A DNA stretch of 64,000 nt. Origin: Acidobacteriota bacterium (GTDB lineage Bacteria; Acidobacteriota; UBA890; WLXD01). How positions within the stretch are numbered: position 1 is the stretch's first letter; every line of letters starts with the position of its first letter. The stretch lies in NCBI GenBank assembly GCA_012103255.1, contig WLXD01000001.1:1315501-1379500 (forward strand), written 5' to 3'. The position numbers and the translations under genes were made by a program. Below, one piece after another: positions 9,908-50,643 of this stretch. The notes under the pieces are model-generated. The model saw only the letters and a program-made list of their open reading frames with translations. It was not told the DNA's origin and did no database searches.

Positions 9908-12629
9908 ACACATTGCCGTGCCACTCGCCATTCGTTGGGGTCGCAGGCTGCAACCTACCTGGAGCCGTGAGCGAGTCTTCGAGCCTGCGCTCCACGACGT
10001 ATTGAGCCAAACGCGCGGCGGCGGAGCTCCTCGCTCAGCGAAGGTGCTACTGCTCCTGTTGCAGTGCTGGCAGATTGCGATCGTGGAGGTCTGGCGGTTG
10101 TGGCGGGGACGCACCACGCTAGCCCATCGACGTCTGGAGTTCGGCGGCGGGAGTAGCGGCGCTGGCGGGCAGCGCAGCGATCTGCCGCCCGCGCGTCCGC
10201 CGCATCCGCTCGAATCCTGGATACAGGACGCGCGTTTCGCGTGGCGCGCACTGATGTCGCGTCGCGGATTCACGCTGGCCGTGGTTCTGGTGTTGGCGCT
10301 CGGTATTGGAGCCAACACGACGGTGTTCACGATCCTCGACAAGGTCGTGCTTCGGCCGCTCGATTTTCCAGAGCCCGATCGGTTGATCTTCCTCACGGAA
10401 ACGGCGCGGGTTGACGGCGTCGAGACGCCGGCAAACGTAACGGCCGGTGGTTTTCGGACCTGGCGCGAGCGGAGCGAGTTGATCGGCGAGATGGCCGCTC
10501 TTCACGCCGCCACATTGAACCTGACGACGGACGATCGTACGCACCAGCTAGACGGTCTGTGGGTGTCGGGGACGTTCTTCGATGTGCTTGGACAACCGCC
10601 CGCGCTGGGGCCGGGATTCTCGCCTGTTGTGGATCGTACCGAGCGCGAGATCGTCGTCAGCCACGGGATCTGGCAGGACCGTTTCGCCGGTGGCGATCAG
10701 GTGATCGGGTCGGAACTGTATTTCGACGAGGAGCCCTATCGAATCGTCGGGGTTGCCGTCGAGGGTTTCACGTTCGGGTCCGACGTGGATGTCTGGCTGG
10801 CCGCCGAGCGCGATATCCCGCGTCCGCCGATCTCTGATGGTGGCGACTACACCGCGTCCTTTGGCCTGGGCTACCTGGGAGTGGTCGGTCGGATTGCGCC
10901 CGAGGCAACGTACTCGCAGGTGGTTGAGGAAATGGACGCGATTTCTGCGGCCATCAGCGAAGAACAACCCGTGGACCAGAGCGATCGCGGCGTTCTCGTG
11001 CGTCCGCTGCACGAGTACGCGGTGGGCGACGTGCGCGCTCCGCTCGGAGGGCTGGTGGGGGCGGTGGCGCTGGTCTTGCTCATTGCATGCGCCAACATCG
11101 CGAGTCTCCTGCTCGTGCGCGCTAGCGCCCGACGACGCGAGCTCGGTATTCGAGAGGCCATGGGCGCGTCGCGCGGAAGATTGTTCCGACTGCTGCTGGT
11201 GGAGAGCCTGGTGCTGTCGATTCTCGGCGGCGTTGTCGGAATCGTTCTGGCCGCAGTGAGCGCCGAGTTCGTGGTGGCGCTCCTCCCGGAGTTGCCCCGC
11301 ACGATCGACCTGACGCCCGACTTCCGAATCCTGGCGTTCAGTCTCGGCGTGACGGCTGTCTGCGGCCTTCTGTTTGGCACTGCGCCAGCCTGGCAGGCCG
11401 CCCGCGCGGACGTACGGGGAGTGCTCGGCTCGACACGGACGACCGAAGGAGTCGGCGCGCGACGTACGCGGAGTCTCCTGGTGGTCGCAGAGATCGGACT
11501 CGCGCTCGTTCTGGTGGTCGGCGCTGGCCTCATGCTCAAGAGCTTTTCGCGCTTGATCGCGGCCGAACCTGGCTTCGATCCCACCAATCTCGTGGCGGTC
11601 AGCCTTGCCCTGCCTGAGGCTCGGTACGACAACAGCCCTGAGATCGGCCAGTTCTTCGCCACTTCGCTCGAGGCGATTCAGTCGCATCCAGAGGTGGAAT
11701 CCGCCGGCGTCGTTCTGGCCACTCCTTTCTCCGGGAGTGCGGCGCGTATGGATGTCTTCGTAGCCGATGAACAGCCCGATGACACGCTCGATCAGCGCGC
11801 TGTGTTCCAGGTTTCAACGCCGGGTTACTTCCAGACGATGCGCATTCCGCTGAACCGAGGGCGCGACTTTACCGAGGCGGACAACTCGGATGGTGCGCCG
11901 GCCGTGATCGTCAACGAGGAGTTCGTCCGCCGTAGGTTGCCGCCGAACGTGGATCCCCTCGAGGTGAGCCTCCATTTTGGAGACTTCGATCCTGTCCCCA
12001 TCGTGGGTGTGGTGGGGTCGGTGCTGCATCTTGGCTACGGTGGCGATGTGCCCTCCGAGGTGTACATCCCGCAGCAGCAGATGCCGTGGCGCTTCGGAAC
12101 TTTCATGGTTCGGGGGCACGAGAGCGACACCAACCTGGCCGGGATCGTGGAAGACGCCGTGGCCGATGTGGATTCGCTGCAGCCGACCGGCGGAGGCCGA
12201 TCGATGGAGGATGTGATCTACGGTTCCGTGCAGCAGCCTCGGTTTGTGACGACCTTGCTGGGCGTGTTCGCCGGCAGCGCCTTGCTGCTTGCCGCGATCG
12301 GGCTGTTTGGCTTGATCAGTTTCTCGGTCGGCCAGCGCAATCAGGAGATTGGCGTGCGGATGGCCTTGGGCGCGGGAGGCGCGGCCGTGCTCCGCATGAT
12401 CCTTCGGCAGGCGCTATCGTTGGTTGGCTTCGGAGTTGCGCTCGGAGTGGCGGCGGGCGCCGCTCTGAGTCAGCTCCTTGCGAGCCAACTTTACGACGTG
12501 AATCCCACGGACCCGGTGGTCTATCTCACCGCCGTGGTGGTGCTCTCCTCCGCGGCGATATTGGCGGCGTGGCTGCCTGCGCGCAGAGCAACCCGGATCG
12601 ATCCTGTGCGCGCCCTGCGCCAGGACTGA
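9900..12629 (+). CDS. ADOP-type ABC transporter permease (MacB/FtsX family)
   Basis: 909 residues. A 95-residue prefix domain with R-E-R-V-F-E-P-A near residue 24 precedes the first membrane helix (about 124-146, L-A-L-G-I-G-A-N-T). The rest is a duplicated permease: a MacB-type periplasmic domain, an FtsX block (A-C-A-N-I-A-S-L-L-L-V-R), a second signal-anchor and periplasmic domain, and a final FtsX block ending R-R-A-T-R-I-D-P-V-R-A-L. No ATP-binding subunit is adjacent, as is usual for this 'orphan' family. GTG 9900 is the start: AAGGGGG lies five bases upstream and the prefix domain is then complete. Substrate unknown; export or lipoprotein/antibiotic handling is typical of MacB relatives. 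Confidence 0.88.
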   Translation: MSEHIAVPLAIRWGRRLQPTWSRERVFEPALHDVLSQTRGGGAPRSAKVLLLLLQCWQIAIVEVWRLWRGRTTLAHRRLEFGGGSSGAGGQRSDLPPARPPHPLESWIQDARFAWRALMSRRGFTLAVVLVLALGIGANTTVFTILDKVVLRPLDFPEPDRLIFLTETARVDGVETPANVTAGGFRTWRERSELIGEMAALHAATLNLTTDDRTHQLDGLWVSGTFFDVLGQPPALGPGFSPVVDRTEREIVVSHGIWQDRFAGGDQVIGSELYFDEEPYRIVGVAVEGFTFGSDVDVWLAAERDIPRPPISDGGDYTASFGLGYLGVVGRIAPEATYSQVVEEMDAISAAISEEQPVDQSDRGVLVRPLHEYAVGDVRAPLGGLVGAVALVLLIACANIASLLLVRASARRRELGIREAMGASRGRLFRLLLVESLVLSILGGVVGIVLAAVSAEFVVALLPELPRTIDLTPDFRILAFSLGVTAVCGLLFGTAPAWQAARADVRGVLGSTRTTEGVGARRTRSLLVVAEIGLALVLVVGAGLMLKSFSRLIAAEPGFDPTNLVAVSLALPEARYDNSPEIGQFFATSLEAIQSHPEVESAGVVLATPFSGSAARMDVFVADEQPDDTLDQRAVFQVSTPGYFQTMRIPLNRGRDFTEADNSDGAPAVIVNEEFVRRRLPPNVDPLEVSLHFGDFDPVPIVGVVGSVLHLGYGGDVPSEVYIPQQQMPWRFGTFMVRGHESDTNLAGIVEDAVADVDSLQPTGGGRSMEDVIYGSVQQPRFVTTLLGVFAGSALLLAAIGLFGLISFSVGQRNQEIGVRMALGAGGAAVLRMILRQALSLVGFGVALGVAAGAALSQLLASQLYDVNPTDPVVYLTAVVVLSSAAILAAWLPARRATRIDPVRALRQD

Positions 12630-35224: not shown

Positions 35225-35272
35225 AGGACTCCAATCGCGGCCGGCCGAGGCACGGCCACTCCGGCGCCCTTG

Positions 35273-35797
35273 CTAGAAGGCGATGGCGACCGTGACGGTG
35301 TCCGTGTAGGCCTGCGCCGGGAGTCCGGCCGGGGGTACTACCTGTCCGTACACCGGAATGCTCTCAAATGAGCCGGTTCCAGTTCCCGAATACGCCGTGC
35401 CGGGGATCGTCGCGAGCGAGCCGCAGCTGGGCCCGCCGCACGTAGCGTCTCCCCACTCCTGCGTGCGCGATGCATCCTTGTAGATTTTGTACGGCAGGTG
35501 GCTCGTTCCGTCGGCACCGAGCATTCTCCGGGTGGTGTTGACGACGGACTGACTCCCCGGTCCGATGCCGATCTGGAACGCGAGCCCAGCCTGGCAGTCG
35601 ACCGTCAGGACCGCAAACGCCTCGTTGGCAGATCCGAAGACCAGGTGGTTGGTCGAGATAGTGCAGCTGCCGGTTTTCTCGAACGTGACGCCCATGATCG
35701 CGGTGGTCTGGGCCTGCGCCTCGTCGACAAACCCGATGACGAGCATTGCAAGTGCAGCTGGACACACAAACTGCATGGGTCGAAGAGTCCTGAACAT
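35273..35797 (-). CDS. Spore coat U (SCPU) pilus subunit, last gene of the operon
   Basis: 174 residues with a signal peptide ending D-E-A-Q-A-Q. The SCPU domain shows the S-C-T-I-S cysteine, a D-C strand and a G-Q-V-V-P-P-A...Y-T-D-T-V-T-V donor-like end. ATG 35797, preceded by GGAG, is preferred; an in-frame ATG at 35848 overlaps the usher stop (TGATG) but gives a 40-residue leader. In Csu systems the last gene encodes the tip adhesin; this one has only one SCPU domain rather than the usual two. Confidence 0.75.
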   Translation of the reverse strand: MFRTLRPMQFVCPAALAMLVIGFVDEAQAQTTAIMGVTFEKTGSCTISTNHLVFGSANEAFAVLTVDCQAGLAFQIGIGPGSQSVVNTTRRMLGADGTSHLPYKIYKDASRTQEWGDATCGGPSCGSLATIPGTAYSGTGTGSFESIPVYGQVVPPAGLPAQAYTDTVTVAIAF

Positions 35798-35847
35798 CGT
35801 TTGCTCCGTGTTGAAGTGGTTCTTACTTGAAGAAACGACTTCTGACA

Positions 35848-38226
35848 TCAGAGCCCTTCATCAACTGAACCGGAAGTCGCGGACGCCGCGCAGACCAAGT
35901 CTCCAAGGTCCACGTAGGGATCGAGCGCGTCCGGGACGACCAACACCAAGGAGCAGCCTGCGCCGCGGAGCGTCACGGTGCCCTCGTACGTGCCAACGCC
36001 GAGCCCCTCCAGATAGATCTCGCCTCCCCGGCCGACGATGGTGACCAGGTCGGCGGAGTTGGGAACACGCACGCGTAGTTCGCCGAGTTCCAGGTTCTCC
36101 GCAGTACTGTCGGCCTCCGGTACGACGCGCGCCCCGATGGCCTGGCGCAACTCAACCTGGAATCCGACGACGCCGCCGCTGCGATACGGCGTCGCGATGC
36201 GTCGGTCGGGCTCGACTACTGACACGTGCACTGGAAGGCCCCGCTGTGACACCGAAATGCTGTTGCCGAGATACGGCACGAGATCCGGAATGAAAAGGCG
36301 CCCGCGCTCATCAGTCGCGCCGAAGTTCTGGTGGCGGAACGAGACGTCGACGCCCTCGAGCCCGGCCACGTCGACCACCGCGAACCCCTGGGTGATCGGC
36401 CGACTCACATAGATGTCGCCCGCGATCGCGGCCACGCTGCCAGACGCGCGCAGGTCGACCTGCTGCTGGCTGCCGCTGGCGCGGATGTCCAGTCCGACGT
36501 CGGCGAACCTCGCGCGATACTGAACGAGGGCGCGGCCAGCATGCTGTGGCGTGCCGGTAGACGCTCCTTGTCGCGCGGCTTCCAACTGATACGACCAGCC
36601 GCGACCGGCCGGCTGCGACTGCTGCAGCGACGCCCGCACCTCTTCGTTGCCCTGGCGCCGGTCGAGGCCAAGTCGAGCAGTTCGCGACCCACCAAGAAAT
36701 GCGCTGAGCGAGACGCTGACGGACGTGTCGGGAGTAGGGAACTGTGCCTTCGACACGCCGACGCTCAAGTTGTAGCTGCGACCGAGCGGACGTGACTATC
36801 GACCGGTGAGCGTCGAGAGCCACTCGGTGCCGTCACGCTTCAGCCAGCCGGCATCGACGCTGAACGATCCGAGAGCCCGGCTCGAATACCCCGCGCCGAC
36901 CGATCCGCGTAGACGATCGCCGGATATCGCCCGCCTGGAGAGGTTCGCGTAGGTGTCCGTGTTGCCGTCGAAAGAGGCGCGCACGCTGAACCCGCCACGC
37001 AGCCACCGATAGTCGAAGAAACCGCCGTAGCCGCTGCGCCCATTTCCACCGGAGTATGCGAATCCGGTTTCGATCTCGCCCAAGCGCCCAAGGGTCGTGG
37101 CGAGCGAAGGCCCGCCACTGACGATCCCGTTCCCGATCTCGAACCGAGCGCCAACGGTGACCGCCGATGACAGCCCGTAGCGGTGGAAGCCACCGGCCAT
37201 GGCCGGGCCGTAGTCGAAGCTGGTTTGTCCCAGATTCTCGCGGCGGAAGCCGGCCGCGTAGCTGTATTCGTGGATTCCTGATCGAAGCAAACGTGAGCTG
37301 AAGTAGAAAACGTCGCGAATGATCTCCTCGCGGCCGGCGTCGTCACGAATCACGATCACGACATCGCTGGTGCCCGACGGCAATTGCAGATTCAGGAACT
37401 GCAGTTGTCCCGGCGGCACTCGCTGGGTGCTGATGAGCGAACCATTGACGTACAACTCGACTTCCGACGCGGTCTCGATGAGCGAGCCTACTTCGAATGT
37501 CGGTACGCGCAGCAGATCCGGCTGGAGCGAAAACTCGCTATTGACGGCGATCCCGCCGAGGCTGGCCGCGCCACCGAGCCGCCCGGTCGCGACCGCAACA
37601 TCACCTGCCCTGGTTCTCCTGATGGCAGAAGGGGAATCCCAGGTAAACGTCGTGAGGTTGCGCACGAATTGGCTCTCAGTGGGTGTGAGCGAATACGTGA
37701 ATGCCGATTCGCCGTGAAGTTCCCCGATATTGGCCCCGACCTCCCATGGCGCGCTAAGCGACCGGAACCCGAAGCTGTCGTCGAGCCCGAGTGTGGCGAA
37801 GTAGTTGAGATACGCATTGTTCGAGCGTACGAGCGGCGCTGGCGACGACTTCGGTCTGAGATTCACCGCGCTCGAACCGAGTAGATCCGGACGTACACGA
37901 ATCGCGAGAACGAAGATCTCTTGGTTGACTTCGAAGGTGACATCAGGTGCCAGGGCACGCAGAGATATCTGGTCGCCGCTGATGCGCCCCGCTCCGGGCG
38001 GCAGGCCGGTGATCTCCAACGTCTGGAAGTCCGTAACGGCGATGAGGACGTCGCCCGTCGGCGAGATTTCCACCACGAGGCGGCCCAAGGGCTCCCCGTT
38101 GAGCGTGGCGTCGAGGATCGCCGCCGTGTTCTCTGGTGCCTGGGCGATGGCCGGGTCCGCGGCGGCCAGTGCGAGTCCCGCGACCAACGCCGCCACACTC
38201 CACGACCATCCCTGACTTCCACTCAC
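35848..38226 (-). pseudogene. Csu-type outer-membrane usher, interrupted by an in-frame TAG
   Basis: Read through, this is about 791 residues: signal peptide (A-D-P-A-I-A-Q), an N-terminal domain, a beta-barrel with its plug, and a C-terminal domain with C-S-L-V-L-V-V-P-D. At 36796-36798 a TAG follows T-L-T-G-R; translation in the same frame then continues S-R-P-L-G-R-S-Y-N-L-S-V-G-V, which fits ushers. No base is gained or lost. The first piece alone (476 residues) lacks the second half of the barrel and could not export subunits. A fresh nonsense mutation, a sequencing error or readthrough are the options. Confidence 0.8.
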
Positions 38227-38234
38227 GGCGCGGT

Positions 38235-38732
38235 TCAGAAATGAACGGTGAGCAGGATCTCGTCGGTGTACTCGCCGGCGGGCAGCCCACTGTCAAAAAT
38301 CGGCACCAGCCCGAAGATCGGCACTGACTGCTGCTGCCCCGTGCCGATGCCATGGATCGGTGATCCGGAAGGGTACGTGCCGGCCAGCTCGCCGTCACCC
38401 ATCTCGACCGACATCGCCTCGTCGATAAAGAGCAGGTACGGCACGGAGCTACCGGACCCGGCACGCAACTGACGCGTGCCGGTTGTGGAGTGCAGGCCGG
38501 AGTTTGCCGAGATGCGCCAGGGTTGCCCCTGGTTGCAGCTGACAGTGGCGGATGCCTGTGAGGCGATGGGCCCCTCTGTGCTCGCACCGAAATCCAGCGT
38601 GGCCCCGGCTATGGTGCAAACCGACGGTACCGTCAGTCCGACACTGAGAGTCCCCGGATTGGCTGGTTGTGGCGCTTTGCCCAACGGCCAGACCAGGAGT
38701 GCCGCCACTGCGATGAGGGGCCGGCGGTTCAT
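38235..38732 (-). CDS. SCPU-domain pilus subunit (between chaperone and usher)
   Basis: 165 residues with signal peptide (A-V-A-A-L-L-V-W-P-L). Domain marks: S-V-C-T-I-A-G-A-T-L-D-F-G and S-C-N-Q-G, ending Y-T-D-E-I-L-L-T-V-H-F. The start codon overlaps the chaperone stop by four bases (ATGA at 38729-38732), and the usher starts nine bases after the stop. Its place between chaperone and usher is not the usual Csu order (A/B, A, B, C, D, E). Confidence 0.8.
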   Translation of the reverse strand: MNRRPLIAVAALLVWPLGKAPQPANPGTLSVGLTVPSVCTIAGATLDFGASTEGPIASQASATVSCNQGQPWRISANSGLHSTTGTRQLRAGSGSSVPYLLFIDEAMSVEMGDGELAGTYPSGSPIHGIGTGQQQSVPIFGLVPIFDSGLPAGEYTDEILLTVHF

Positions 38733-39499
38733 TGTGCTGCCGTCAGCTCGGCGGCACAGCCGCTCGCGGCGATGACCAGGGACTCTTCTATCGTGAAGGT
38801 CTCCTCGTGCGCGGCGATCTCCACCTGGGCCGTGCTGCGACACTGGTGCGCTGTGACGGGCGCCGCGAACGCGCGCGTAGTGCCGGTGAGCAGGTACCAC
38901 CCCGGGATCTCCGCCCGAAAAGTCTCACCGCCCTGAGCATCGACGCCGCGGATCTCGATCTGACCCATGCGCGAGAACGTGTTGCCGGTATTTGCCAGAT
39001 CGACAAGCACGTTACCGCTCTCGAAACGCGCTCCACTCACAGCGACCTGGCGCTGCGCGGGACCGCTGCGGAGGAATAGCGGGACGCTGACCTGCAGTGT
39101 GAACTGCACCGGCGCATTGGCCGCCGCCTGGCTCGGCAGCTCTTCGACGAAGACCCTGTAGGCGGTCTCCGCGTCGGGTTGGCTGCCGCGCAGCGCGATC
39201 CGAATGGAGCGCGACTCGCCTACCGGAATCTCTGTGATCCGGGGAAAGAGCACCAGATCGCCGGCTTCTTCGGTGACGTCGTTGCCCGCTGCGTCTTGCG
39301 TCCAACGCATTGCGCGGGCCTGAACGTTCAGCGGCCGGTCACTCTGGTTCGTCAATGTCAGCTCGGTGTCCCGGACGTGGTCACCGAGGTTGAGGCGGAG
39401 TGGCGAAACGCCGAACTGGCCGGCTTCGGCCTCTGCTGCGAACCACAGAGTCGTGAACGCCAAAGCCAGGAGGAATGGGAAGCGAGATCGGTTGGGCAT
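38729..39499 (-). CDS. Periplasmic pilus chaperone (PapD-like, Csu type)
   Basis: 256 residues. After a signal peptide (A-E-A-E-A-G), the first immunoglobulin-like domain reads F-G-V-S-P-L-R-L-N-L and Y-R-V-F-V-E-E-L-P, with the conserved G1-strand alternating hydrophobic residues (F-T-L-Q-V-S-V-P-L-F-L) used for donor-strand complementation. A short second domain follows. It folds and ferries SCPU subunits to the usher. Confidence 0.88.
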   Translation of the reverse strand: MPNRSRFPFLLALAFTTLWFAAEAEAGQFGVSPLRLNLGDHVRDTELTLTNQSDRPLNVQARAMRWTQDAAGNDVTEEAGDLVLFPRITEIPVGESRSIRIALRGSQPDAETAYRVFVEELPSQAAANAPVQFTLQVSVPLFLRSGPAQRQVAVSGARFESGNVLVDLANTGNTFSRMGQIEIRGVDAQGGETFRAEIPGWYLLTGTTRAFAAPVTAHQCRSTAQVEIAAHEETFTIEESLVIAASGCAAELTAAQ

Positions 39500-39511
39500 G
39501 GTTGCGGTCCC

Positions 39512-40039
39512 CTACATGCAGACGGTGATGGTGACGGTGTCGGCGTAGTTGCCGGTGGCCTGATTCGCAGGCACGTTGGCGAGGAGTTCGACGGCGAGGA
39601 TGGCGTCGACTCCGGTGATGGTTCCGGTCAGAGGCGTGCCCGTGGAGCCGCCACAGCCGTTGTCGCCAATGGCGGTGCCCGCACCATCCGTGATGTTGTA
39701 GGTCACGAAATCAGCGCTTTTCTTCATGCGGCGCTGGCCGCTCAGACTGTTGGCGCCCAGTCCGAAGCCGACCTTGAATGCGACGGGGCTGGCTGGAGTC
39801 CGCGAGCAACGGACGGTCACCGAGCTTCCCCATGGTTGGTTCGTCGTGCTGCCAGCGATGATCGTCCCGATGTTTCCATCGGGTGGGATAAGAATCACGG
39901 TTCCGCAGCCGCCAGGAGCAATTGAGGCCGTGACCGTCATCGATGTAGAGGCAGCGACGGTCGATTGAGCATGAACTTCCGCGGAAAATGACCAGCAAAC
40001 GATCGCGATCAGCAACGGTGCGCGCAGGTTTCTCGGCAT
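39512..40039 (-). CDS. SCPU-domain pilus subunit
   Basis: 175 residues with a signal peptide ending E-V-H-A-Q-S. The SCPU pattern includes G-G-C-G-T-V, V-R-C-S, and a terminal G-N-Y-A-D-T-V-T-I-T-V. It lies 12 bases upstream of the chaperone and was probably one of the main shaft subunits. Confidence 0.82.
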   Translation of the reverse strand: MPRNLRAPLLIAIVCWSFSAEVHAQSTVAASTSMTVTASIAPGGCGTVILIPPDGNIGTIIAGSTTNQPWGSSVTVRCSRTPASPVAFKVGFGLGANSLSGQRRMKKSADFVTYNITDGAGTAIGDNGCGGSTGTPLTGTITGVDAILAVELLANVPANQATGNYADTVTITVCM

Positions 40040-40061
40040 AGCGTTCCTCCTTGGCGAGGCT

Positions 40062-40586
40062 TCAGAGTTGCAACGTCACGGTGACGACGTCGTGGTAGGT
40101 GCCGGCAGGAGCGCCGGTGAAATAGAGGCGGGCATGGATCGTGATCGACGCCGCGACACCCGTTCCTACGAAGGCCCGTGCGGTGCCGATCGGGTACGAG
40201 GCTGCGAAGTTCTGGTCGCCCCAGATACGACTCCGGCTGGAGTCCTGGTAGAGCTCGTAGAGAACGGTGTGTGGCCCGTTCGCGACGGCGCGGCGGTTGC
40301 CCGCCTTGTGGGCGGAGAGACCACTGTCGAGGGCGACGAGGTATGGCAGGCGCGCGGGGCATCGCACGGTGATTTCCGCCTGTGGATCGGCGTTTCCGGG
40401 TTGGTCCGCGAACTGGCGCGAGAAGCGCAACGAACCGACGTCGATCGTGCAGGGAGTCGTCACTGATGCCGTGATCGGCCACTTGGCTTCGGCGACGATG
40501 GCGTCTTGCGCATGCGCGGCTCCGGCAGCACAGACGGCGAATATGAGGACACTCCGCGCTCGCGTTGAGAGCCCCGGGGGCCTCAT
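40062..40586 (-). CDS. SCPU-domain pilus subunit
   Basis: 174 residues; signal peptide A-A-G-A-A-H-A-Q. Cysteines occur in T-P-C-T-I-D-V-G and T-V-R-C-P, and the terminal strand is G-T-Y-H-D-V-V-T-V-T-L. It overlaps the upstream gene by four bases (ATGA) and is followed 22 bases later by the next subunit gene. Confidence 0.82.
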   Translation of the reverse strand: MRPPGLSTRARSVLIFAVCAAGAAHAQDAIVAEAKWPITASVTTPCTIDVGSLRFSRQFADQPGNADPQAEITVRCPARLPYLVALDSGLSAHKAGNRRAVANGPHTVLYELYQDSSRSRIWGDQNFAASYPIGTARAFVGTGVAASITIHARLYFTGAPAGTYHDVVTVTLQL

Positions 40587-40927
40587 AGGTGCACCGTTAC
40601 GGCCGCGCCCGGCGCTGGGTCGGGAAGGACGAAGCCGCCGGTGCCACAGGCCACCAAGGTGACCTGCTGGCCGGAGTCGTCTCGGACCGTGATCTGAAAG
40701 CTCGAGCCGGGTTCGCAGTCGAGATCGATACGAGTTTCCGGGTCGTTTTCCGGTGCCTCGATGGAGCCGCTGCCCTCACGGCCGCCAATCTCGACTTCGC
40801 CGCGCGCAGCGACTTCGACCGCGATCGTCAACGATCCAGTCTGGGCTGTCGCTGCCACGGCGCTCAGGCAGGTCGCGGCGACGAGCGCAGGGTGCGTGAA
40901 CGATCGACGGATCTCGGTTGCGGTCAT
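40583..40927 (-). CDS. Short SCPU-like protein, first gene of the pilus operon
   Basis: 114 residues with a signal peptide (A-A-T-A-Q). It has D-C-E-P-G-S and a terminal A-A-V-T-V-H-L strand, but is about 50 residues shorter than its neighbours and lacks the first cysteine segment. It may be an incomplete or specialised subunit. The operon's promoter must lie in the 130 bases shared with the ECF sigma gene. Confidence 0.6.
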   Translation of the reverse strand: MTATEIRRSFTHPALVAATCLSAVAATAQTGSLTIAVEVAARGEVEIGGREGSGSIEAPENDPETRIDLDCEPGSSFQITVRDDSGQQVTLVACGTGGFVLPDPAPGAAVTVHL

Positions 40928-41057
40928 TTGTCACGTGGGAAGCTTGAGGTGAGTCCTATTGAGACAAACGACGATCGCGGCCCGACTCCTTCACGCTCCG
41001 CGCAGGTTTTGGACGCTCGGACCCAACGGTTTGCACACGCGGCACGTATGTAAGGCT

Positions 41058-41621
41058 GTGGAAACAACACTCACGATTCGAAGCTCAGCGGTGAGCGACA
41101 CGGACCAGGGGCCTCGGGCCGAACGGCTCGAAGAACTGTTCGACGCGCACCATGGGCGGCTCTTTGCCCTTGCCACTCGCATGGCCGTAGCGGGCGATGA
41201 CGCCTGTGATCTGGTGCAGGACACGTTTCTGCGGGCGGCCGGCGCGCGACGCATTCCGTCCGGATCCGCGGGTGAACCGTGGCTGGTCCGCATCCTCGTG
41301 AACCTCTGCCGTGACCGCTATCGACGACGGTCCTACCGAGGCGAGCAACGAGCGGCGATGCGGCCGGTGAGCACGTCACCGTCTCCGGAGGCGGCAGTCG
41401 GTGCCCGCGACGTGGTACGTGAAGCATTGACGCAGTTGCCGCCGCGACGACGCGCAGTCGTGGTTCTGCGCGAGCTCGAAGAACTCGCGACCGCCGATGT
41501 CGCCGCGCTGCTCGGGTTGAGCGCGGTCACCGTGCGCTGGCATCTGAGCCAGGGCCGCAAACAACTCCGCGAGCTCCTTGAAGTTGATGCAGCCGTCCCC
41601 GGAGGAAGTCCTCATGACTGA
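41058..41621 (+). CDS. ECF-type RNA polymerase sigma factor
   Basis: About 187 residues. Region 2 reads E-L-F-D-A-H-H-G-R-L-F-A-L-A and D-L-V-Q-D-T-F-L-R-A; region 4 reads L-P-P-R-R-R-A-V-V-V-L-R and T-V-R-W-H-L-S-Q-G-R. The start is uncertain: GTG 41058 has AAGG very close, GTG 41091 has none, and a longer frame from 40959 adds residues unlike the family. It is divergent from the pilus operon and is followed by a likely anti-sigma gene overlapping by eight bases (ATGACTGA). Confidence 0.82.
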   Translation: METTLTIRSSAVSDTDQGPRAERLEELFDAHHGRLFALATRMAVAGDDACDLVQDTFLRAAGARRIPSGSAGEPWLVRILVNLCRDRYRRRSYRGEQRAAMRPVSTSPSPEAAVGARDVVREALTQLPPRRRAVVVLRELEELATADVAALLGLSAVTVRWHLSQGRKQLRELLEVDAAVPGGSPHD

Positions 41622-42129
41622 ACGATCCGACTGGCGCGATGTTCTGCGGGCCAGTGACCCCTATGACGGGGCGGGGCTGGCTGCAGCCGAGACCACCCGG
41701 CTCCGGGCGCGCATCCGCGCCGCCTCTGCTGACCCCGTGGCTCCGGGTCGCTCCTGGGCGGCGGCCGGCGGCATTGCCGCAGGCCTGGCTGTTCTGGCGC
41801 TGACCTTCCTGATCAGCCGCGCGACTCCTGATCTTGCGGTCGAGCCTGACGCGGGCCCGGTGGCGGCTACCGTTGCGCCGACATACGAAGTGCCTGCGCC
41901 ACCCGATTCGCTCCTGCCGTCCGATCGAGTTCGTCTGGACGCAGTTCGCGTTTCTGCACTCAAACCGCCCGTCACGCTGCTGACGGCGGCCGAGCCGGCG
42001 GTACGCAACGTCCGCCTCACCGCGCCGCGTGGCACGCGGATCATCTGGACGCTCGACCCTGCGTTCGGAGACAACTCCCAAACTGCAAATGGCGACCCCA
42101 GTCGCTTCCAAGGAGCTGACCCTCGATGA
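41614..42129 (+). CDS. Probable membrane anti-sigma factor
   Basis: 171 residues. A polar N-terminal region of about 48 residues is followed by one membrane helix (G-I-A-A-G-L-A-V-L-A-L-T-F-L-I) and an exported C-terminal part. The topology and the position right after an ECF sigma gene suggest an anti-sigma factor; no zinc H-x-x-x-C-x-x-C motif is present. GGAGGAA at 41601-41607 is the binding site, and GAGG can pair with CCTC just before the ATG. It overlaps the next gene by four bases. Confidence 0.6.
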   Translation: MTERSDWRDVLRASDPYDGAGLAAAETTRLRARIRAASADPVAPGRSWAAAGGIAAGLAVLALTFLISRATPDLAVEPDAGPVAATVAPTYEVPAPPDSLLPSDRVRLDAVRVSALKPPVTLLTAAEPAVRNVRLTAPRGTRIIWTLDPAFGDNSQTANGDPSRFQGADPR

Positions 42130-42869
42130 AAACGTCCAGTACGCGCACCGTATTCACGCTTTGTCTGTTCGCGACCCTTCTCGTGGTGATTGCCGCACCG
42201 GCCGTGTCTCACGCTCAGGAGGTGAAGCGCGAGGTCCGCGTGTACACCCCTCAGTTCCTCGAAACCACGAATGCCGCGGCGCTCGCCTTTCAGGTGTGTG
42301 GTTCGGGCGATCGTTGCTCGATCGAGTCGATGGGGGATCAGGGGGTGGTTCTTGGAGCCACGGCCGAGATCCATGCCGAGTTCGCGAACCTGCTCTCCGC
42401 GCGTGATGTCCCGCCACCGACACAGGAGTTTCGAGTCATCGTGCTGCGTGCGGATCAGAGCGGTGCGTTGCCGGATGTGCCCGCCGATGCTCAGGACGCA
42501 CTGGCCGACCTGCGGGAAATGCTCACCTACACCGGGTTCGAGATCATGGGGTCCGCCTGGCTACGGACATCGGGATACGGGCGGACGACGCTCGGCGAAG
42601 CGGGTTCGTTCGGCGTTGAACTGCAGTTCTCCGGTGACCCGCGCCAGAACGACACGTTGCTGGTGCGCGAATTCGGCCTGTCCCACAGCATCGTGAACTG
42701 GATGGGCGAAGACGGCAGCGGGGAGCGAGTAGCCATGCTTGGTGAGCCCAAGACCATCCTGGTCTCGCAGTTCGGGATCAGTGTCGGGGAGACCGTTGTC
42801 GTGGGCACGTCGCGACTGAACGGCGGCAGCGAGGCTCTGGTGGTTCTCTTGACGGCACTACCGCGCTAG
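42126..42869 (+). CDS. Secreted protein of unknown function, third gene of the sigma operon
   Basis: 247 residues with a signal peptide ending V-S-H-A-Q. It has R-V-I-V-L-R-A-D-Q-S-G and L-R-E-M-L-T-Y-T-G-F-E-I-M, then a beta-rich second half. I recognise no family; the layout is reminiscent of small secretin-associated or pilus-linked periplasmic domains but that is a guess. Co-transcription with the sigma and anti-sigma genes suggests it senses or supplies the envelope signal. Confidence 0.55.
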   Translation: MKTSSTRTVFTLCLFATLLVVIAAPAVSHAQEVKREVRVYTPQFLETTNAAALAFQVCGSGDRCSIESMGDQGVVLGATAEIHAEFANLLSARDVPPPTQEFRVIVLRADQSGALPDVPADAQDALADLREMLTYTGFEIMGSAWLRTSGYGRTTLGEAGSFGVELQFSGDPRQNDTLLVREFGLSHSIVNWMGEDGSGERVAMLGEPKTILVSQFGISVGETVVVGTSRLNGGSEALVVLLTALPR

Positions 42870-42940: not shown

Positions 42941-44833
42941 TCAGCGCAGCGCGACTCCGTAGCGGAGGCCCACATACGCGCTGCGCCCGGCGGTGCCGTA
43001 GCCCCAGACGTCCTGGTACTGCACGTCGCCGAGGTTCTCGAGCCTTGCGAGCACGGTGAGTCCTGCGCCGACATCGACCTGTCCGGCCGCATTGAGCAAC
43101 GTGTAGCTCGGCAATTCGACACGTCCCACGGTGCCAAAGTCATCGCGCTGCCCCTTGTATCGCAGTTCGGCGACTAGCCGGACGCTGTGGGCTGGGCGAT
43201 AGCGAACCTGACCGGTGGCAGTGTGTCGCGGACGGCGCAGTAGCTGCTCGTCGGTGGCCACGTCCACGGCATCGGTGAACGTGTAGTTGGCTTCAAATCT
43301 GATCTGTGAGCTCGCGGCCCACCCGATGCCGAACTCCAGGCCCTGCGACCGCGCCTCGCCGACGTTGACGATGCCGATCGGGAACAGGTACTGGATCAGG
43401 TTCTCGACGTCGTTGCGAAACCATGTCGCGTCGATCTCGATGGTGTCGCCCGCAAGATTTGCGCTGAGGCGGACATCCCATCCCTCGGACTCCTCAGGCT
43501 GCAGCGCCGGATTGCTGAAGCCGGGGAAGTACAGGTCATTCAGCGAGGGTGCGCGGAAGCCGGTACCGAAGGATGCCCGGGCTCGGACCTGCGGCGCGAA
43601 CTGCCAGCCGCCGGTGACGCGGTAGGTGAAATGACCACCGAATTCCGAATGGTCCGTGAAGCGGCCTCCTGCGGTGAGGTCGACAGTTGCACGACTCAGT
43701 CGGTGGAGCGCATAGACCTCGGTCGTGTCGACCGACTCGTCGAACCCTCCTGGGCCGAAAGCCGACTGTGTCGCTGACTCAGCTTCTTCGTTACGAAGTT
43801 CGCCACCGACGACCGTCGTGTTCGAAGCGTCCCAGCCGATGTCGTTCTGGAGTTCGATCGCAGTCGTCTGCGTATCGAGTTCGCTCGACGTGTTGAAGCC
43901 GTTGGGGTTCACCGTACCGAGGCGGGCGTCGCTGATCGTCGCGGCCAATCGTCCGGAATACTTGCCGCGCTGGTAGGTGAGCGCCGCACCTCCGATGGTT
44001 TGCCTGCGGCTCTGCAGGTGGTCGAGATCATCCACAGGGCCGGTCGAGAAATCGAAGCCATCGATCAGCGTCTCCCCGTCGAAGTAGTTCAAGAGAGCCT
44101 CCGCGCCCAAGCCCTCGCCGCTTCCGGCCCGCACCCGTGCGTTGATCGCCGTATTGGAGTACGAGTCGTCCTCGGCGTTGCCGGTATTCGCGTCTGCCGC
44201 GGAGAAGCCGTCGGTACGAAAGCGTTCCACTGTGGCGGCGTAGGCGATCTCGTCACCGCCACCTTCGACAGCTGCGATGCCCCGCGCGGTGCCGTAGGCG
44301 CCGCCGTCGAGCGAAGCGGTGAACTGGGGCACGCCGCCGCCGGCTCGGGTCACGACGTGGATGACGCCACCCAAGGCTTCGGACCCGTAGAGCACGCTCT
44401 GGGAACCGCGGACGATCTCGACGCGTTCGATGGCGGACACTGGCAGCCCGCTGAAATCGTAAGCACCGGTCGTGGGAGAGTTCACGCGCACGCCGTCCAT
44501 CAAGACGAGGGTGTGATTCGAGTTGGCACCGCGCAGGAAAACACTGGTGATCGTGCCGGGGCCGCCACTGCGAGCGACGACCACGCCGGGAACAGTGGCA
44601 AGCGCGTCGCTGAGCCAGTGCACCCCGAGCGCGTCAAGATCTTCGGCGGTGAGAACGGTCACAGCCGACCCACTGCGCTCCAGCGGGACCTCGAGTCGCT
44701 CGGCAGTAACCGTCACCGATTCCCGAATCTGGGGCGGTGTGTCCTGCTCGTTACCTGACGTCTGGGCGAGCGTGGGAGAAGAGAAGAGAAAGGTGCAGAG
44801 CACCACGGCAGACACAAAGGCAGAACGCCTCAT
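42941..44833 (-). CDS. btuB: TonB-dependent receptor, BtuB-like (cobalamin)
   Basis: 630 residues: signal peptide (P-T-L-A-Q), a TonB-box-like E-S-V-T-V-T-A near residue 38, a plug (V-L-T-A-E-D-L-D-A-L-G; R-G-A-N-S-N-H-T-L-V-L-M-D-G-V; G-S-E-A-L-G-G-V-I) and a barrel of about 22 strands. The cobalamin riboswitch upstream makes B12 or cobinamide the likely ligand. BtuB-type length fits. No BtuF or BtuCD genes are in the window. ATG 44833 has GGAGGG six bases upstream, held in a small hairpin. Confidence 0.9.
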   Translation of the reverse strand: MRRSAFVSAVVLCTFLFSSPTLAQTSGNEQDTPPQIRESVTVTAERLEVPLERSGSAVTVLTAEDLDALGVHWLSDALATVPGVVVARSGGPGTITSVFLRGANSNHTLVLMDGVRVNSPTTGAYDFSGLPVSAIERVEIVRGSQSVLYGSEALGGVIHVVTRAGGGVPQFTASLDGGAYGTARGIAAVEGGGDEIAYAATVERFRTDGFSAADANTGNAEDDSYSNTAINARVRAGSGEGLGAEALLNYFDGETLIDGFDFSTGPVDDLDHLQSRRQTIGGAALTYQRGKYSGRLAATISDARLGTVNPNGFNTSSELDTQTTAIELQNDIGWDASNTTVVGGELRNEEAESATQSAFGPGGFDESVDTTEVYALHRLSRATVDLTAGGRFTDHSEFGGHFTYRVTGGWQFAPQVRARASFGTGFRAPSLNDLYFPGFSNPALQPEESEGWDVRLSANLAGDTIEIDATWFRNDVENLIQYLFPIGIVNVGEARSQGLEFGIGWAASSQIRFEANYTFTDAVDVATDEQLLRRPRHTATGQVRYRPAHSVRLVAELRYKGQRDDFGTVGRVELPSYTLLNAAGQVDVGAGLTVLARLENLGDVQYQDVWGYGTAGRSAYVGLRYGVALR

Positions 44834-44839
44834 GACAAA

Positions 44840-44854
44840 CCCTCCTTGCGAGGG
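44840..44854 (-). promoter_or_regulatory. SD-hiding hairpin of the riboswitch
   Basis: On the minus strand CCCTC-GCAAG-GAGGG folds a 5-bp stem whose second arm is the btuB ribosome binding site. It is the likely switch that the aptamer opens or closes, so control would be translational. Confidence 0.6.
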
Positions 44855-44865
44855 ACAACGCTGGG

Positions 44866-45086
44866 TTGTGGCGGTCTCCTGACTTACGGATCGCTCTACT
44901 CGCCACCGCCTTCCCAGGAGCGTGCTCCCAGTGGCGTTCCGGTCGTGACCGACTCGAAGGCAACACGCCTTCGCTCCAGCTCCACGACCTCGGGTGGCTT
45001 TCGTCCCCGAATACAGTTGCGCGGCAGCGCGGGATTCTCACCCGCTTCCCGTGCCGACATTCGCCGGCTGACCGCAGCAAACCACC
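44866..45086 (-). ncRNA. Cobalamin (B12) riboswitch
   Basis: On the minus strand the 3' end carries the B12 box G-T-A-A-G-T-C-A-G-G-A-G-A-C-C-G-C-C (complement of 44870-44887). The core G-G-T-G-A-G-A-A-T-C-C-C-G-C then C-G-C-A-A-C-T-G-T-A lies upstream. P1 can form: GCGGTC (complement of 45070-45075) pairs with GACCGC (complement of 44871-44876). It precedes a BtuB-like gene, as expected. High cobalamin should lower receptor synthesis. Confidence 0.92.
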
Positions 45087-45183
45087 TCCGGTGCCGGCGT
45101 GCAACTTGGGCCCGGGCGCAGCGAGAGCCGGGCGCGAACGGCCGTCCACTCGCAGGACGCTCGCCGGCTGGAACTCATGGCGA

Positions 45184-49268: not shown

Positions 49269-50643
49269 TGACCGGTACCTCGAGCACGTTGACCGCGAGG
49301 CCACCGCGGGCCGTTTCCTTGTACTTGGTCTTCATGTCGCGCCCGGTGTCGCGCATCGTTTTGATGACCTTGTCGAGCGGGACGAAGTGAGATCCGTCGT
49401 CGCGCAGAGCGATCCGGGCGGCGTTGATGGCCTTCACGGCGCCCATCGCGTTGCGTTCGATGCACGGCACCTGAACGAGACCGCCCACCGGGTCGCAGGT
49501 GAGCCCGAGGTTGTGCTCCATCCCGACCTCAGCGGCGTTCTCTACTTGCTCGGGTGTGCCTCCGAGAACTTCTGCAAGACCAGCAGCGGCCATCGAGCAT
49601 GCGGATCCAACTTCGCCCTGGCAGCCGACTTCCGCCCCCGAGATAGAAGCGTTCTCCTTGTAGAGCAGCCCAATTGCGCCGGCGGCGAGGAGGAATCGGA
49701 CCACGCCGGCGTCATCGGCGTCGGGGACGAACCGCGTGTAGTACTTCAGCACCGCGGGAATGATGCCGGCCGCGCCGTTCGTGGGCGCGGTCACTACCCG
49801 CCCACCGGCGGCGTTCTACTCGTTGACTGCGACAGCCCAGACGCTGACCCAGTCCATGACCTCGAGGGGATCGGGAACCTGCTTCGCCGCCAGGCGATCA
49901 GACCAGTCGGCCGCTCGACGGCGTACCCGAAGACCGCCGGGCAAGATCCCGCGAGTTGTACAGCCGCGTTCGATGCAGGCGTCCATCGCATGCCAGAGTT
50001 CGAGTAGTCCGGACTCGATCGTGGTTCCTTCGCGCCACGCGGTCTCATTCGCACGCATCACATCGCTGATTCCGCCGCCCATCTCGGCGCATCGCGTGAG
50101 CAATTCGGCCCCCGAACGGAAACGATACGGAAGCCTGGTGGAATCCTCGACGATGACGTCGGCTCCGGCCGCCTCTTCGTTGACGACGAATCCGCCGCCC
50201 ACCGAATAGAAGACGCGTTGCTGAAGGGTCTCGCCATCTGAGCCGAACGCTGTGAAGCGCATACCGTTCGGATGGTACGGGAGCGACTGCCGCCGCTCGA
50301 AGAGCAGGTCGGTGGCAGCAGCCCACTGCACCTCGCGGCCGCCGAGGAGACGGATCGTGCCCGATTCATGGATGGCTTCAACCCGATTCGGCGCGGTGTC
50401 GAGTTGGATCTCCTCGGGCGTCTCGCCCTCGAGGCCGAGCAGCACGGCTCGATCGGTGCCGTGGCCAACTCCGGTGAACGCAAGAGAGCCGTAGAGTTCA
50501 GATTGAACCCGGCAGGTCGTTGCGAGAACGTCGGCGTCTTGCAGGCCGAGCACGAACTCACGTGCCGCTCGCATCGGCCCCACGGTATGCGAACTCGAGG
50601 GGCCGATGCCGATGCTGAACAGGTCGAAGACGCTGACAGCCAT
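49252..50643 (-). pseudogene. sdaA: L-serine ammonia-lyase (iron-sulfur), interrupted by an in-frame TAG
   Basis: Read through, 462 residues, the full length of single-chain L-serine dehydratase: M-A-V-S-V-F-D-L-F-S-I-G-I-G-P-S-S-S-H-T at the start, then [17 protein letters not shown] and the cluster cysteines in V-G-C-Q-G-E, L-T-C-D-P and V-P-C-I-E-R. TAG at 49816-49818 falls in A-V-N-E-*-N-A-A-G-G, where relatives have A-V-N-E-E-N-A-A-G-G, so a GAG to TAG change is the simplest explanation. All three cysteines lie after the TAG, so the short product could not hold the cluster. A GTG at 49794 could restart. Confidence 0.85.

Follow-up and report, generated by a model that had tools for sequence, protein, structure and literature searches.

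Does the TAG codon inside the usher gene of this pilus operon inactivate the gene, is it translated, is it one state of a switch, or is it an error in the assembled sequence? We examined the operon in a window of 64,000 nucleotides (the window being the whole stretch of DNA analyzed) from the 4.81-Mb assembly of an uncultured Acidobacteriota bacterium, which comprises nine contigs and is 95% complete. The operon starts with a small ORF, followed by two SCPU subunits, the PapD-type chaperone, another SCPU subunit, the usher, and one last SCPU subunit, arranged in window coordinates as follows.

40583..40927, minus strand: first ORF of the operon, for a small subunit-like protein, putatively secreted; no family (Pfam) match
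40062..40586, minus strand: SCPU-domain pilus subunit; PF05229, E 1.1e-20
39512..40039, minus strand: SCPU-domain pilus subunit; PF05229, E 4.7e-09
38729..39499, minus strand: PapD-type periplasmic chaperone; PF00345, E 4.2e-14
38235..38720, minus strand: SCPU-domain pilus subunit; PF05229, E 1.9e-21
36799..38226, minus strand: usher 5′ part, 476 codons, with signal peptide, N-terminal domain, plug, and first barrel strands; PF00577 profile 64-200 and structure model
36796..36798, minus strand: in-frame TAG interrupting the usher gene, frame position 477
35848..36795, minus strand: usher 3′ part, 315 codons plus terminal TGA, with the remaining barrel and C-terminal domains and no signal peptide; PF00577 profile 346-532 and model
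35273..35848, minus strand: SCPU-domain pilus subunit, last gene of the operon; PF05229, E 4.5e-22

With four PF05229 subunits, one PF00345 chaperone, and an usher, the operon has the gene content of the archaic (Csu/SCPU) type, and all four SCPU genes of the genome are located in it. The initial annotation had described the chaperone and five subunit-like genes as undamaged; the chaperone and the four SCPU genes were indeed intact, whereas the fifth (40583-40927) gave no Pfam hit. The Csu operon of Acinetobacter baumannii, csuA/B-A-B-C-D-E, encodes archaic chaperone-usher pili (PMC10721868, PMC9452303) and likewise unites SCPU-domain subunits, a PapD-type chaperone, and an usher in one operon. 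By contrast, chaperone and usher are separated by an SCPU gene here, the usher is interrupted, and no long two-domain tip gene of the CsuE type was seen: the subunit ORFs reach about 220 aa at most, with a single SCPU match apiece, although a diverged second domain may be present. The likeness to Csu is set by gene content; the nearest homologs found for the usher are 29-34% identical to it.

Re-reading of the minus strand confirmed a single in-frame TAG at 36796-36798 in the usher frame running from 38226 to 35848. The frame is made up of 791 sense codons, the internal TAG at position 477, and a terminal TGA (793 codons), and it is the TAG that keeps it from being uninterrupted. At the local base composition, a random frame of this length would contain ~20 stops on average, and the probability of finding one or none is ~4e-8. 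Codon-usage scores were 0.253 bits/codon over the 476 codons 5′ of the TAG and 0.252 over the 315 codons 3′ of it, while the remaining two minus-strand frames were non-coding by this score. The Pfam Usher family (PF00577) was found above the cut-off in both halves, covering profile positions 64-200 before the TAG and 346-532 after it. Thus, both halves are normal usher sequence, as initially annotated, and the accompanying claim that no base had been lost also held, since no indel was present and the alignment around the TAG was gapless in most homologs. The same alignment rules out a compensated frameshift hidden in the usher. The GC3 of the usher (0.77) was average for the genome (57th percentile); a recent foreign origin judged by composition was therefore unsupported, and usher composition argues neither for nor against transfer.

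No stop was present at the TAG column in any of the 85 homologous ushers covering it. After collapsing at 80% identity to 69 non-redundant ushers, Tyr accounted for 44% of the residues in this column and Tyr, Phe, Trp, and His together for 68%, and the column was among the 13 of 751 with the highest share of Tyr. Because the column is mostly Tyr or another aromatic residue, one substitution accounts for the usher TAG. The example codons offered in the initial annotation (CAG, AAG, and TGG) did not include Tyr, the residue most often seen in relatives. These comparisons draw on homologs of which the closest found were 29-34% identical, none above about 34%, and the TAG is known from the sequence of one assembly.

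A structure was then modelled with AlphaFold from the usher frame read through the TAG (mean pLDDT, 85.9). The model showed the usher fold with a plugged beta-barrel, with FimD and PapC as the best PDB matches and FimD (3rfz, E 1.3e-41) as the top match in the structure search. FimD belongs to the classical pathway and shares the fold at only ~16% sequence identity to the usher here. The TAG falls within the modelled barrel strand 470-481. Judging from the strand list, truncation at this position would cost the C-terminal domains and about eight strands, or approximately one-third of the barrel. Translation would stop after 476 residues, and the product would hold the N-terminal domain, the plug, and about two-thirds of the barrel strands. 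Because the last strands and the C-terminal domains would be missing, no translocation pore would be expected and no pilus would be assembled. Lacking an export signal, the 3′ part probably could not be exported alone and could not supply the rest. In addition, this usher is the only one in the genome, so there is no paralog able to compensate.

A full-length usher would still be made if the TAG were translated, whether by a suppressor, by reassignment of TAG, or by programmed readthrough. Such a reading, mentioned as an exotic one in the initial annotation, is favored by the normal coding quality kept in both usher halves and by the presence of SelB and a Sec tRNA, which suggests that TGA can be recoded as Sec in this genome. 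Readthrough was also proposed for the interrupted stgC usher, since the stg operon continued to confer a phenotype (PMC4494162). However, TAG is the commonest stop in this genome, ending 314 of 560 long ORFs (56%), and RF1 is encoded together with RF2. None of the genome's 45 tRNA matches (Rfam, ARAGORN) carried a CUA anticodon, the anticodon loops of two tRNAs missed by ARAGORN reading UCU and GUC, and PylS was not found in the genome. Furthermore, the usher TAG and a second in-frame TAG, described below, align with different residues (Tyr-like and Glu, respectively) without an obvious common context. TAG recoding was therefore rejected on stop usage, RF1, and the missing CUA-anticodon tRNA and PylS, which contradict the readthrough proposal and leave a translated TAG very unlikely. 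That amber readthrough is tolerated or used at particular in-frame TAGs (usher and sdaA), giving some full-length protein, is a shade less likely again.

TGA recoding, on the other hand, is likely in this genome and has no bearing on TAG. An in-frame TGA was observed in a thioredoxin/deiodinase-like sequence (GSIT-TGA-PFCG; L154, about 1159-1722; G000:C1:461159), which is a probable selenoprotein given the SelB and Sec tRNA of this genome. Another lies just before VLCHTG in a DUF3179 protein (L163, about 11845-12567; G000:C1:652565, minus strand), in which PF11376 resumes at profile position 67; this TGA possibly encodes selenocysteine. A third, in an FG-GAP/UnbV_ASPIC protein (G000:C1:1155357; L188, about 15357), may reflect a pseudogene, recoding, or a gene boundary.

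Phase variation of fimbrial operons is common in other bacteria, and on this precedent the usher TAG might be one state of a reversible switch, as the initial annotation had also considered. Yet a point substitution is no fast switch. There was no homopolymer, tandem repeat, or slip tract at the TAG, the operon contained neither close inverted repeats nor a recombining repeat pair, and the genome offers no second usher copy for gene conversion. Repeat-based switching was rejected on the lack of a recombining repeat pair in the operon, and phase variation is the least likely of the readings considered.

A second isolated in-frame TAG, on which the initial annotation was silent, was found at 49816-49818, ~13 kb from the first, in the minus-strand frame 50643-49255 of an sdaA-type L-serine dehydratase gene that is the only copy in the genome. 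The SDH_alpha profile ended at position 86 before this TAG and resumed at 88 after it. Glu occupies the position in the genomes G002 and G007 and is conserved in relatives, and the sdaA genes of G002 and G001 were open over the matched part. Among 158 sister-matched ORFs, representing the part of the genome compared, this was the sole convincing interruption. A codon-model scan for split genes, incomplete and not a census, yielded candidates that were nearly all adjacent genes or antisense noise as judged by eye, and the usher itself went unflagged.

These findings bear on whether the organism carries a sense codon and an intact usher, the TAG being an assembly consensus error or a minority-strain base. 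The lesion is isolated in an otherwise clean operon, another isolated TAG 13 kb away breaks the sole sdaA at a conserved Glu, and a partial survey across 1.85 Mb yielded no other convincing TAG interruption. Two isolated TAGs at this distance raise the chance of a local sequence error. By contrast, the contig is 1.47 Mb long, the neighboring genes that could be compared with sisters were open except for sdaA, and long-read errors are mostly indels, unlike these two lesions, which are substitutions. A literature search for nonsense artefacts in metagenome assemblies found nothing. Taken together, an artefact has a considerable chance, short of even. It is also possible that the usher and sdaA are two real recent pseudogenes.

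The reading we favor, by a modest degree of confidence, is that the usher TAG is an ordinary nonsense substitution, recent or polymorphic in the population, with the pilus not assembled. Approximately 3% of substitutions in the usher would produce a stop. Under unselected drift, and assuming 0.08 frameshifting indels per substitution, the probability of no further usher lesion is ~0.07 at 1% divergence and ~0.005 at 2%. The TAG, if real, is thus recent and unlikely to be past about 1% neutral divergence, because no further lesion was present. The initial annotation had regarded the loss as recent, reversible, or artefactual; a recent loss or an artefact is best supported, given the intact operon and the lack of other lesions, but the reversible switch is not.

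Interrupted ushers have precedents. The stgC usher in the stg fimbrial operon of Salmonella enterica serovar Typhi is interrupted by one internal stop while the rest of its chaperone-usher operon is intact, as here, and its readthrough was suggested but not demonstrated (PMC4494162). In that cultured species, several further ushers might stand in, whereas the usher described here is the only one of its genome. Resequencing of a second strain showed the stgC stop again; here the base comes from one assembly, and the operon is of the SCPU type. In Salmonella, the median genome has one disrupted fimbrial coding sequence (PMC9238391). Ushers with single stops are therefore already known, and the usher TAG is a further example of this kind or an artefact, with no pointer to a new mechanism.

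Finally, we compared the locus with those of sister genomes, in which the following stretch was missing.

35251..40998, no strand assigned: whole pilus operon, absent from the syntenic site in the sisters G001 and G002; homology break

Homology to G001 stopped at window position 35250 and restarted at 40999, and the two ends adjoin in G001; in G002, about 560 bases lie between them. The extra DNA relative to the sisters is about 5.75 kb and includes the whole operon. None of the eight remaining genomes of the order, several of them incomplete, yielded an usher, which leaves no sister codon for the comparison proposed in the initial annotation. The usher query matched in 10 of 396 genomes of the phylum, including this one. 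The simplest reading is that the operon was gained in this lineage, with repeated loss in other lineages as a possible alternative. Its lack in the eight order-mates and at the syntenic site of G001 and G002 fits a dispensable trait. If the TAG is real, this is another dispensable, lineage-specific pilus operon disabled by one mutation; if it is an artefact, pseudogene calls in this assembly call for reads.

At window positions 41007-42869, an ECF sigma factor gene and two ORFs after it are oriented divergently to the pilus operon; they are conserved in the two sister genomes from which the operon is absent. In addition, a Cobalamin riboswitch (RF00174, 68.9 bits) was detected at window 44853-45091 on the minus strand, upstream of a BtuB-like TonB-dependent receptor gene (42941-44833).
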